Source: an uncultured Clostridia bacterium (GTDB lineage Bacteria; Bacillota; Limnochordia; Darwinibacteriales; DTU012). From it: a stretch of DNA of 39,622 nucleotides. How positions within the stretch are numbered: position 1 is the stretch's first letter; every line of letters starts with the position of its first letter. Of this stretch, positions 24,836 through 30,001 are shown piece after piece. The stretch is from positions 1 to 39,622 of the forward strand of contig FIZJ01000009.1 of the NCBI GenBank assembly GCA_900019385.1, read 5' to 3'. Below the pieces are notes generated by a model, which was not told the DNA's origin, made no database searches, and was given only the letters and a program-made list of their open reading frames with translations. The position numbers and the translations under genes are program-made.

Positions 24836-26758
24836 TTACAGCTTGAAACGGTTGACCAGCCTGGCCATCTCTTCCGCCATCTTGGCAACGGTTTCCGCAT
24901 TGGTGGCGATCTGCTCCATGGAAGCGGCCTGCTGTTCGGAGGAGGCGGCCAACTCCGCCATCCCCGCTTCGATTTCCACGCTGGATGTGTTCACTTCATT
25001 GATCAGCTGCACTGTATCGCCGATGCTGGCAATGATCTCCTCAAAGTCTTCTTGCGTTTGCTTCAGACTCTTGGCTCCGGCGACAATCTTTTCGTTGTTG
25101 CTGTTGATAACACTGACCGCTTCGTTTGTCCCTGAGCGCAGCTGATTGATATAATTCATGATGGTGCCGATGGAGGCCTGTGTCTCTTCCGCCAAGTTCC
25201 TGACCTCATCCGCGACTACAGCGAACCCGCGGCCGTGGGAACCAGCGCGCGCGGCCTCGATGGCGGCGTTTAGAGCCAGAAGGTTGGTTTGATCCGCAAT
25301 TTGGGAAATAATATTGACTACTTCGCTGATTTGGTTTACCGCCTGTTCCAGCTGGGCGATCTTCTCCTGTGACGCTTTGGATGACTCGAGAATCTCCATC
25401 ATCACTCTGTCTGAAGCGATCATCTGCTCGCTGCCCTTGTGCGACAGCTGATTGACATTCTTCGCCTGCATCGCCATCTTTTCGGTGATGCGGTGCACCT
25501 CTTTGGTGGTTTGGGCGTAATGATTGATGGTTGAGACAATCTCTTCGATGGTGGCGGAGTTTTCTTCCGCGGCCGCCGAGAGCTCTTCGCTGGCGGAGGA
25601 TGCGTTGTGGACCGCGTCGTTGATCAAGGAAATCATTTCCCGGAGGTTGTCTGTCATCTTGTTGAACGAGGCGATCAGTTTACCGATTTCATCCCTGCGC
25701 TTGATTTCGATCTGCTGCGACAAATCTCCAGAAGCTGCTTGTTCGCTGTAAGCCACCAAATGGGCGATGGGCCTTGTGATGCTGTTGGATAAAAAGTTGC
25801 TGACCAGCCCGATGCCAAGCGCTGAGGCCACAATAATGACGGAAAATAGTATTTGGGTTTGGTAGACTCCGGCCATAGCCGCGTCTTTGTTTGTCTCCAC
25901 GATCAGAATCACAGGTTCGCTGCCGATATGTACCAGCTTTGCGTAACCCAACACGGTTTCACCGTCGAAACTGCGGTATTCCAGATCAATGAAGGGATTC
26001 TCATTGACGCCAGCGGCAATTCGTGTGGCTGACGTGATGATGTCTGTATCCACCTTGCGGGTGAAGCTTGTGTAGCCTTCATATTGAGTGCTGCTGAGCA
26101 GCAGGCCGTCAGGCTTGACCAGATAAGCATCATACTCAAGATTGTTGGGGCTTGAGACACTTTGTATCAATTGGTCCAATTGGGCGTGGCCGATGGCTGC
26201 GCCGACAGTGCCGACCACATCTCCAGTGATATTGTAGACCGGTACTGTTACAAACATCAAATATGTCTGCAGCTGTTCAGACCAGATCCACGGCGACCAC
26301 GTGGGAGCGGCGGTTGCCAGGGCGGTGCCTATGAAATCCTTGGGTGCGTCATCCGCAGTCAATGTGGCCTGGGGGTTGAAAAGGATGTAGTCGTTGCTTG
26401 TGGCGAACAGATCCAAGTATTGATCTTGATAGTCCTTGGCCACTCTGTTGATGGAATTGAGAACTGTGGTCAAACTGGTGCGCCACATGCTGGAATTCGG
26501 CTCTGTGTTGGCCATGAGAGAGATAGGAAGGGTAATGCTCTGGTCATTGGCCAGAGTCTCAATCTGCCCGGTGTGATACTGGAAGAAACTGTCCAGCTTC
26601 TCGCTGATCGATTCCAGAAGCCTGACGGAGTCCCGGTAGATGATCTCCCGTTCTCTTTTTTCTATGCGAAGGTAGAACACAGTATCGACAATAATAGCCG
26701 GCAATAGCCCCAAGAATAGAAAAATGAGGATCAGCCTGATCCGTAAGCTCTTTGTCAT
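24836..26758 (-). CDS. Methyl-accepting chemotaxis protein (dCache, HAMP, MA)
   Basis: This protein is about 640 aa from the ATG at 26758, 8 nt after AAAGGAG; an upstream ATG lacks a site. A first membrane helix lies at about 7-27. An extracellular dCache-like sensor of about 240 residues follows, with the [22 protein letters not shown] stretch characteristic of the family's ligand pocket region. A second helix (about 270-295) and a HAMP domain ([18 protein letters not shown]) follow. The long cytoplasmic coiled coil carries the signalling tip [25 protein letters not shown]. It should relay an unknown ligand to CheW/CheA. No C-terminal CheR-tethering pentapeptide is seen, and no che genes lie nearby. 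Confidence 0.9.
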
Positions 26759-26906
26759 GCTGAAATCTCCTTTAATGTAGTCATACATATATTTACCAAA
26801 TCTTAACTAAAGTATATCACACCGGTGGGCCAAAAAACAAGACCGAACGGGACAAGGAATTTGCGCGGGAGGTAAAGAAAGGAATAGCAGAACGGAGGTT
26901 GGACTA

Positions 26907-29189
26907 ATGGAAAACCATAAGCAGAACAGAAACCTGGCTTTGATTTTGCTTGGATTTATAGTAATCATGCTGGTGATTGCCGTTTGTGCGATCAAACCGC
27001 CCAAGCCGGTTGGCAGCGGCGCGCCGCAGGATCAGTTCGCTTCCGGCAGGGCTATGGAGCATTTGGCCCAGATCGCCGCGGAACCGACACCGATCGGCAG
27101 CGTCAGCCACCGGCAAGTCTGGGAATATTTGTTAGGCGAGCTGAAAGCACTGGGTTTGGAAGCGGAAATCCATGAAACCACAATGTACAATCCCTACTGG
27201 CGCAATGCCGGCAATGTGGCCAATGTCATCGCCAGGATCCCCGGCACGGATTCTTCCCGCGCAGTGGCTTTGGTGGCCCATTATGACACAATCAGCCTAG
27301 TGCCGGGGGCAAGCGGATCAAAAGCGGCGATCGCGGCGATCCTTGAGATGTTAAGGGTGCTGAGCCTGCGGGAGCCGCTGAAAAACGATCTGATCATATT
27401 GTTCGCCGACGGCGGCGAGACAGGCATCCTGGGCACGCTTGCCTTTTTGGAGCAGCACCCTTGGGCAGAAGATGTGGGCCTGGTGATCGCTGCTGCGGCC
27501 CGGGGAACAGCAGGTCCGGTGATGATGATCGAGTCCGGACGGGACAACAGCTGGATTGTGCCTCATTTTGCCAAGGCCGTGGATAATCCTGTCGCAAACT
27601 CATTCACCCATGAGGTTTACCGCTGGCTGGTTAATGATACTGATTTCTTGGCCTTCAAGCAGGCCCTGATCCCAGGGCTGCAGCTGACCTTCTTGGACAA
27701 TGCCAGGGCGTTCCAGACACCTTTGGACAACCCCGGCACCCTTGATGAGAGCAGTTTGCAGCATTTGGGGACTTATCTTTGCCAATTGGTCACTCATTTT
27801 GGAAATGTGGAGATTAAAGAGGGGGAGGCGGATCTTGCCGCCAACCGGGTCTATTTCGACATTCTCGGCCGGTTTTTAGTCCGTTATCCCATCGGGTTTG
27901 TTGCCCATACCTTGACTGTTGCCATCATCTTGTTTGGTTTTGTCTGCTGGCATGCTTTCAAGACGGAAAAAGCCAAGCTTACCCATACAGCCTTTGGCGT
28001 GCTGCTGTTTATCGGCATGGCGATCTTCAGCATGCTGATAACCAACATGTTCTTTGGAATCGTCCAGTCCGGCAGCGGGTTCTACCAGTACATCCCCATG
28101 ACGGGAGGGTTGTGGTACTACGGAGCGATCGCCGCTCTGGTCGGCGCTCTGTTTTTCTGGCTGTACACATGGGCCCTGGACAAGTATAGGCTGATGGATT
28201 TATACCTGGGCATAAATACTGTTTGGCTGGTTGTGACCGTAATGGCGTCTCTGTACCTGCCGGGGGCAAGCTATGCCTTTGTCTGGCCGTTCTTGTTCAG
28301 CTTGGCGGCTGCCATGATCATCAACGCCCGCCCCAAGCTTGCCTGGCCCTCAAAGCTTGCCGTGCTGGCGATCGGATCCTTGCCGGTGTTGATTTTGTGG
28401 CCGTATTTGCTTAGGACGCTGTTCGTCATCTTGGGGTATGCCCTGCCGGGGTTGCTGTCCTTCATGGCAGTAATGGCCTTTGGGGCGCTGCTGCCGCATT
28501 GGGCGAGCATCATACAGTGGAAAAAGCTGGTGCTCCCGATCCTGGCAGTCATTACAGCCGCAGCCTGCCTTGGGATGGGCATCTGGTCTTCACAAGGAGA
28601 CCGCAGCCCCCACATGGATACCCTCTTCTATTTTGCCGATCTTGACTTGGAGCAGGCCTACTGGGTGAGCCTCGATCAGGCGCCGGATTCATACACGGAG
28701 CAAGTGCTGGGCAGCGAGTACCAAGAATCCAACCTGGGCCAGTTCATCCCATATGAAGATCTGCCTGTGATATACAGCCAAGCGGCTTTGGAGCCGGAGG
28801 CTGCCCAAGAACTGATCAGGGTTGAGCTTTTGGAGGACCAAAACGAAGGTGAAGTTCGCCGCATGACCATGAAGATCCAAGCTGCTCCCGAAGTGAACAA
28901 CTTGATCATCTATATTGAACCGGAACTGCTTAATGGTGCCGTCATCCTCGATGGGGACACCACTGTCGAATGGGAGGAGCGCTGGCCGGTGCTGCGGTAC
29001 TACAACCCCGACGCCGACGGGTTCGATCTTACTATTCCGGCGGCAGTCGATCAACCCTTTACGATGAGAATCCTGGCTCATGTGCTGCAGCTGCCGGCGG
29101 TCGGCCTTACGCCGCGCCCGGAAAACATCATATCGGCTCCCACAGGGATTACCGACAGCACATTTGTGTTCAAAAGCTACCAGTTTTAG
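26907..29189 (+). CDS. Membrane M28-family peptidase-like protein with degraded active site
   Basis: This 760-aa protein starts at ATG after GGAGG. One N-terminal helix (10-29) precedes an M28 domain (about 40-315) resembling the ER-metallopeptidase (Fxna/ERMP1-like) group: AHYDTIS, KNDLIILFADGG, NDTDF and TPLDNP. At least seven membrane helices (about 330-570) and a soluble C-terminal domain follow. His125 and Asp127 of the first metal motif remain. The bridging Asp is replaced by Gly137, the catalytic Glu of GEE by Gly170, the ligand Glu of the F-E-A-R-G-type motif by Ala197, and the late ligand His by Gln270. It is therefore probably not an active aminopeptidase. It is followed after 26 nt by the MBL gene. 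Confidence 0.8.
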   Translation: MENHKQNRNLALILLGFIVIMLVIAVCAIKPPKPVGSGAPQDQFASGRAMEHLAQIAAEPTPIGSVSHRQVWEYLLGELKALGLEAEIHETTMYNPYWRNAGNVANVIARIPGTDSSRAVALVAHYDTISLVPGASGSKAAIAAILEMLRVLSLREPLKNDLIILFADGGETGILGTLAFLEQHPWAEDVGLVIAAAARGTAGPVMMIESGRDNSWIVPHFAKAVDNPVANSFTHEVYRWLVNDTDFLAFKQALIPGLQLTFLDNARAFQTPLDNPGTLDESSLQHLGTYLCQLVTHFGNVEIKEGEADLAANRVYFDILGRFLVRYPIGFVAHTLTVAIILFGFVCWHAFKTEKAKLTHTAFGVLLFIGMAIFSMLITNMFFGIVQSGSGFYQYIPMTGGLWYYGAIAALVGALFFWLYTWALDKYRLMDLYLGINTVWLVVTVMASLYLPGASYAFVWPFLFSLAAAMIINARPKLAWPSKLAVLAIGSLPVLILWPYLLRTLFVILGYALPGLLSFMAVMAFGALLPHWASIIQWKKLVLPILAVITAAACLGMGIWSSQGDRSPHMDTLFYFADLDLEQAYWVSLDQAPDSYTEQVLGSEYQESNLGQFIPYEDLPVIYSQAALEPEAAQELIRVELLEDQNEGEVRRMTMKIQAAPEVNNLIIYIEPELLNGAVILDGDTTVEWEERWPVLRYYNPDADGFDLTIPAAVDQPFTMRILAHVLQLPAVGLTPRPENIISAPTGITDSTFVFKSYQF

Positions 29190-29215: not shown

Positions 29216-30001
29216 GTGGTGAAGATTCACTTCCTGGGTACATGCGCCGGTACGGAACCGCAGCCAAACCGCAGGCACTCGTCGTTGGTTGTGGAGTATC
29301 AGGACAGGCTGTTCTGGTTTGACGCCGGCGAAAGCTGTGGTTATACCGCCCATATGATGGGTTTGGACTTGCTTAAGACTAACGCGGTCTTCATCTCCCA
29401 TCCCCATATGGATCACATCGGCGGGCTGCCGCACCTGGTCTGGGTGATCAAGAAACTTGAATCCCGTTCGCTTCAGGCCAATGCTCGTGAGATTGAGCTC
29501 CACCTTCCGGCGGCGGAGATTTGGGAAGGCCTGAAGCTGATGCTGTTTCTCAAAGGTAGAACGCTTGATCAAGGCATTGGATTCAGCCCAAAGCGGATCA
29601 CCGACGGTATGATCTACCACGAAGCAGGCTTCAAGGTCACGGCCGTGCACAACCTGCACCTAGGGACGCCTGCCCCAGGCGGCTCATGGCAGTCGTTTTC
29701 CTTTTTGATTGAGGCTGGGGGAAAGCGGATCATCTACTCTGGGGATTTCAAGGAAATGGCAGAGCTGGAGCCCCTGTTTGACTTGGGGCCGGTGGATCTG
29801 CTGCTGGTGGAGACGGGGCACCATACTGTGGAAGAAATCTGCTCACATGTGGTGCGGCAGGGGAAAACAGTGGCCTCCATCGGGTTCACCCATCACGGCA
29901 GGGCTGTGCTTGACGATCCCGGTGCCGAGCTTGCCAAAGCCCAGGCCATCTTTGGGCCCAAGGTGTTTCTTGCGGAAGATCAAACAACAATGACCCCGTG
30001 A
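29216..30001 (+). CDS. Metallo-beta-lactamase-fold hydrolase, RNase Z-like subgroup
   Basis: This 261-aa protein starts at GTG after GGAGGGGA; a second GTG follows directly. It opens with KIHFLGTCAGTEP and a FDAGES strand. The metal motif HPHMDHIGG is complete. Later ligands are the His of VHNLHLG, the Asp of YSGDFKE, and the His of GFTHHGR. The layout resembles RNase Z/ElaC and related MBL enzymes, but the tRNase Z exosite is absent, so a tRNA role is not supported. It is probably a cytoplasmic hydrolase of unknown substrate. It sits 26 nt after the M28-like gene, likely in one operon. Confidence 0.78.
   Translation: MVKIHFLGTCAGTEPQPNRRHSSLVVEYQDRLFWFDAGESCGYTAHMMGLDLLKTNAVFISHPHMDHIGGLPHLVWVIKKLESRSLQANAREIELHLPAAEIWEGLKLMLFLKGRTLDQGIGFSPKRITDGMIYHEAGFKVTAVHNLHLGTPAPGGSWQSFSFLIEAGGKRIIYSGDFKEMAELEPLFDLGPVDLLLVETGHHTVEEICSHVVRQGKTVASIGFTHHGRAVLDDPGAELAKAQAIFGPKVFLAEDQTTMTP

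Follow-up and report, generated by a model that had tools for sequence, protein, structure and literature searches.

An ERMP1-like membrane protein of an uncultured Clostridia bacterium is a probable pseudopeptidase of M28 descent

The stretch of DNA analysed here (39,622 nucleotides of contig FIZJ01000009.1 from an uncultured Clostridia bacterium, hereafter the window) encodes an ERMP1-like membrane M28 protein from which the two-zinc site is missing. Comparison of this protein with its relatives makes it very probable that it is a maintained membrane pseudopeptidase, catalysis having apparently been lost stepwise in one bacterial family. Judged on its sequence, the protein is an M28 homologue with the layout of ERMP1 but would not be an M28 member as an enzyme.

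The gene is present as a single copy in the window genome (G000), which otherwise holds a few distant M28/M20-like matches, the best of them reading as an M20 PepT-type protein. An earlier sequence-only reading of this DNA had described an intact frame of 760 codons, homology to the M28 family and at least seven membrane helices. The frame is borne out, with an ATG start and an upstream GGAGG (Table 1). Homology to M28 is likewise confirmed by a Pfam scan, which returned one domain in the 760-residue protein, Peptidase_M28 at residues 106-294 (1.5e-28), the PF04389 profile scoring 100.2 bits against a curated cut-off of 21.3 and being covered across the whole domain (profile positions 1-192 of 193). 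As to the helices, hydropathy gives nine, in keeping with the earlier minimum (residues 11-29, 329-347, 365-383, 406-424, 429-447, 454-472, 484-502, 505-523 and 541-559). The charged loops predict an N-in topology in which the M28 domain lies outside, as do the last 200 residues, and the predicted order of a first helix, an external M28 domain, eight helices and an external C-terminal domain is that of an ERMP1-like protein. ERMP1/Fxna, the eukaryotic M28 protease of the endoplasmic reticulum membrane, likewise combines an M28 domain with nine transmembrane helices (PMC11120530) and shares with the window protein an identical spacing of the active-site columns.

Table 1. Features of the M28-like gene and of the genes on either side of it, in window coordinates
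Feature	Position	Strand	Basis or remark
Divergent dCache chemoreceptor gene	24836..26788	-	118 bp gap to M28-like gene
Shine-Dalgarno GGAGG of M28-like gene	26894..26898	+	ATG 8 nt on; GGAGG kept in three genus relatives
ERMP1-like membrane M28 protein CDS, two-zinc site missing	26907..29189	+	760 aa, ATG start, intact frame
TM1, residues 11-29, N terminus inside	26937..26993	+	Hydropathy and charge
Peptidase_M28 domain, residues 106-294, predicted extracytoplasmic	27222..27788	+	PF04389, 100.2 bits; M28/QC fold match
His125 codon, zinc-2 ligand kept	27279..27281	+	Alignment
Gly137 codon replacing bridging Asp	27315..27317	+	Alignment
Gly170 codon replacing catalytic Glu	27414..27416	+	Alignment
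Glu171 codon, zinc-1 ligand kept	27417..27419	+	Alignment
Ala197 codon replacing Glu/Asp zinc-2 ligand	27495..27497	+	Alignment
Phe269-Gln270 codons replacing stabilising Tyr and His zinc-1 ligand	27711..27716	+	Alignment, Ermp1 spacing
TM2-TM9, eight-helix membrane bundle, residues about 329-559	27891..28583	+	Hydropathy and charge; helices in model
C-terminal acidic beta-rich domain, residues 563-760, predicted extracytoplasmic	28593..29186	+	No Pfam match
Metallo-beta-lactamase (RNase Z-like) gene	29216..30001	+	26 bp downstream of M28-like gene

The active site was read from an alignment over 25 homologues at eight key columns (125, 127, 137, 170, 171, 197, 246 and 270), whose canonical state, H/D/D/E/E/E-or-D/D/H, was taken from at least 12 canonical homologues; the window protein has HDGGEADQ. 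The site of Schizosaccharomyces pombe Ermp1 is formed by His161, Asp173, Glu207 (the proton acceptor), Glu208, Glu234, Tyr306 and His307, zinc 1 being held by Asp173, Glu208 and His307 and zinc 2 by His161, Asp173 and Glu234 (PMC11120530). This spacing transfers residue for residue to His125, Gly137, Gly170, Glu171, Ala197, Phe269 and Gln270 of the window protein. The four replacements proposed in the sequence-only reading (G137, G170, A197 and Q270) are thus all right by both the alignment and the Ermp1 spacing, and to them is added Phe269 in place of the catalytic stabiliser Tyr. Whereas S. pombe Ermp1 retains the five zinc ligands together with the catalytic Glu, the window protein is without four of these six: the H-D-E-(E/D)-H ligand set of active M28 enzymes is broken by D137G, E197A and H270Q, with H125 and E171 kept, and the catalytic Glu is Gly170 in the window protein, in the other three genus members and in G008, a more distant relative. 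Glu171 is the only protein ligand left to zinc 1 and His125 the only one left to zinc 2. With one ligand remaining at each site, canonical binding of two zincs is ruled out; the general base being gone as well, we infer that the protein would not carry out zinc-dependent hydrolysis.

An alignment with homologues, which the sequence-only reading had called for, reveals the losses to be genus-wide. Those at 137, 170 and 270 are common to three further species of the genus (54-67% identity), whose open frames give HDSGEDDK (G003), HDNGEADQ (G001) and HDSGEMDQ (G002). G008, of the same family (41% identity), has a half-lost site (NDAGEESH), and the nearest out-group, G016 of the same order, a full canonical one (HDDEEEDH). 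The losses are not a sequencing accident, since equivalent ones occur in the open frames of three genus species and, half-way, in G008. Canonical sites were also found in testable homologues from Hydrogenedentota, Azospirillum, Janthinobacterium, Streptomyces, Nonomuraea and Paenibacillus, in record L034 of the viral_contigs set and in others of the window's phylum. The viral_contigs search, made for alignment depth, added one new relative only; the copy in G005, its N-terminal half lying beyond the contig end, was left out of the site columns, and the DGEE motif of L013, which has a six-residue insert, was placed properly in the larger alignment.

In the tree, the genus and the genus plus G008 are each supported at 100/100, and the group that adds the canonical G016 at 99/98. 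Parsimony on this tree suggests that the change of Glu170 to Gly and the loss of Asp137 preceded the split of G008 from the genus, that His270 was lost on the genus stem and residue 197 in three of the four species, and that G008 lost His125 and Asp246 separately. The ancestor would accordingly have been a membrane-bound M28 zinc peptidase of ERMP1-like layout (one helix at the N terminus, external M28 domain, eight helices, external C-terminal domain) which first lost the catalytic Glu and the bridging Asp; the His ligand would have gone later, as would the third acidic ligand in most species. Two zincs could then no longer have been held canonically, and purifying selection would have preserved the fold since then.

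A separate clade (G006, G012 and G014; support 99/95) has HDDHEEDH at the key columns, all zinc ligands being kept and the catalytic Glu replaced by His (DGHE/DAHE). A side listing of this clade comprises L008, L009, L010 and L011 (genomes G006, G014, G012 and G016), of which G016 is itself canonical in the alignment. We considered these proteins as dead enzymes and rejected the idea because the titles of PDB entry 2ANP and of a reference in PMC4320195 describe the E151H mutant of the Aeromonas aminopeptidase as functional; going by these titles, the clade appears to be a natural counterpart of that mutant.

The sequence-only reading had also held that the gene is maintained rather than decaying, and proposed dN/dS across relatives as a check. 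Pairwise dN/dS is about 0.1-0.2 within the genus, well below 1. Between the window and G003, dN is 0.22 and dS 1.2-1.5 (dN/dS 0.15-0.18), and for the M28 domain by NG86 dN is 0.18 and dS 1.5 (about 0.12), ratios that are rough as synonymous sites are near saturation here and saturated in many other pairs. Since the canonical residues at 137, 170 and 270 are already gone from all four members, what these comparisons capture is largely the evolution that followed the loss. In every pair, as in canonical relatives, conservation is highest in the M28 domain (identity of window and G003: 71.6% in the M28 domain, 68.3% in the membrane part and 61.9% in the C-terminal domain). Ten canonical proteins share 31 invariant columns, of which 25 are constant across the genus; the six that vary (45, 137, 195, 238, 269 and 270) lie mostly at the site and column 170 is fixed as Gly, so that the catalytic centre has taken most of the change (Fisher exact test of losses at the site versus other conserved columns: p 0.012 for the window protein, p = 0.004 for losses common to all four). 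Catalytic residues lost from a fold under purifying selection are, at the level of sequence, what is expected of a pseudoenzyme.

Relaxed decay, in which the gene is on its way out and its frame merely still uninterrupted, could draw on the absence of a copy from genus member G004 (genome 94% complete), which means that one lineage at least can do without the gene, on the lower conservation of the protein relative to its neighbours (in G003, 67% against 74-91% for most of them) and on the free variation of site columns in the genus (G/S/N/S at 137; A/D/A/M at 197). We nevertheless consider it quite improbable, as four species that are 54-67% identical still have open frames with ribosome-binding sites, dS greatly exceeds dN with the M28 domain best conserved, and the losses of E170 and D137 are apparently older than the split from G008. 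Just as improbable is that the protein is still an enzyme, working with one metal as do glutaminyl cyclases of the same fold, or with a re-built site. AlphaFold2 models made with few alignment rows (pLDDT 55.5 at full length, 39.6 for the domain alone) can be read for overall fold only; in the low-confidence model, residues 38-302 match M28 aminopeptidases and glutaminyl cyclases (best Z 12.5, rmsd 4.1, 208 residues aligned), the single-zinc cyclases ranking as high as the peptidases, and a profile search found the Bacillus subtilis aminopeptidase 6hc6 at 2.6e-16. Of the structural check suggested in the sequence-only reading, the fold therefore stands (Z about 12, low confidence) while the geometry of the site is unreadable, and the metal-site argument rests on the alignment. 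The poverty of the models makes a metal site rearranged from variable residues conceivable; His125, Asp127, Glu171 and Asp246 are kept, and the Aeromonas titles cited above report function with another substitution of the catalytic residue, Glu to His. Against this, the bridging ligand and the general base are gone, and the alignment columns of the four genus members contain no new genus-wide Asp, His or Cys in the M28 domain; the two newly shared Glu, 188 and 307, are distant from the site columns in sequence, so that no replacement ligand is evident. The cyclase metal presumably has as its ligands the equivalents of D137, E171 and H270, of which E171 alone is present in the window protein. 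Lys139, two residues past the lost bridging Asp, is found in the genus, in G008 and in the canonical G016, and residue 270 of G003 is Lys; a lysine could occupy the emptied metal site.

The downstream metallo-beta-lactamase (MBL) gene, on the same strand, is probably co-transcribed with the M28-like gene, and the sequence-only reading had raised its product as a possible partner. In ten genomes tested, the MBL was found only in G000, G001, G003 and G005, all carriers of the M28 gene and adjoining it each time. However, the MBL is missing from two M28 carriers, G002 (whose copy is a pseudo-enzyme) and G008, and it resembles RNase Z and has no obvious signal peptide in its sequence. With the MBL apparently cytoplasmic, the M28 domain predicted outside and M28 carriers without MBL, direct partnership is unlikely, and we give very little credence to the pseudo-enzyme being a dedicated partner or regulator of the MBL protein. 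In G008, a MacB/FtsX-type ABC transporter set lies downstream of the half-lost copy, in the MBL's place (contig C123, L028:503-4793).

On the other side, the dCache chemoreceptor gene is backed in the window by an oligopeptide ABC (Opp) operon; the chemoreceptor orthologue and Opp genes also accompany the M28 gene in G003, G008 and G001, a methylase gene intervening in G001. This gene encodes an N6/N4 DNA methylase of about 414 aa; in G001 and G002 it is inserted immediately upstream of the pseudo-enzyme gene (L026:8612-9856, L027:2476-3723), and it is absent from the window and G003. Overall, a dCache chemoreceptor gene adjoins the M28 gene in five genomes, counting G001; the G006 copy has alongside a non-orthologous short dCache receptor with its signalling part ahead of its sensor part (L030:5268-6281). 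The window genome has five MCP signalling matches only. The chemoreceptor link is suggestive, and may reflect a single inherited arrangement. Conservation of the neighbouring chemoreceptor and oligopeptide transporter makes extracytoplasmic peptide binding our best guess at the function of the pseudopeptidase, its pocket or domain surface perhaps binding a peptide or a partner outside the membrane. More speculatively, the external domain may pass information, or a ligand, on to the chemoreceptor or transporter encoded nearby; in a specific form that we think unlikely, the dead ectodomain would be a co-receptor that captures and keeps peptides, instead of cutting them, and passes peptides or a signal to the dCache chemoreceptor and the nearby Opp transporter.

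Ectodomains of M28 type that serve binding or assembly are known from eukaryotic non-peptidases (GPAA1/Gaa1, nicastrin, transferrin receptor and nicalin). They are without catalysis, as the window protein very probably is, but belong to other lineages; no Pfam Gaa1 (PF04114) or Nicastrin (PF05450) match to the window protein was found at E up to 1, weak sub-threshold ones being given by the canonical L006 only. Bacterial membrane proteins annotated as M28 family peptidases (WP_012978620 of Azospirillum, L034 and L006) are full-length homologues of the same layout at about 30-35% identity and, unlike the window protein, have an intact canonical zinc site. B. subtilis YwaD (6hc6) and the Aeromonas and Streptomyces griseus aminopeptidases share the fold, and their site columns co-align, but these are active di-zinc enzymes, soluble and secreted. 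On plasmid or viral records, full-length relatives with a canonical site (L034, L035, L036, L038 and L039) repeatedly adjoin NRPS-type genes (MbtH, adenylation domain protein, SbnA/SbnB, reductase, P450 and MFS), hinting that active family members mature secreted peptides.

To our knowledge, M28-fold pseudopeptidases are mostly eukaryotic, and a literature search for a described bacterial one returned nothing directly relevant. Extant members of this bacterial family of membrane M28 proteins represent every stage, with the site intact, changed from Glu to His, half-lost or lost, and expression tests on these could date the end of catalysis and reveal the function that survived it. Genes such as the one described here should not be annotated as peptidases.
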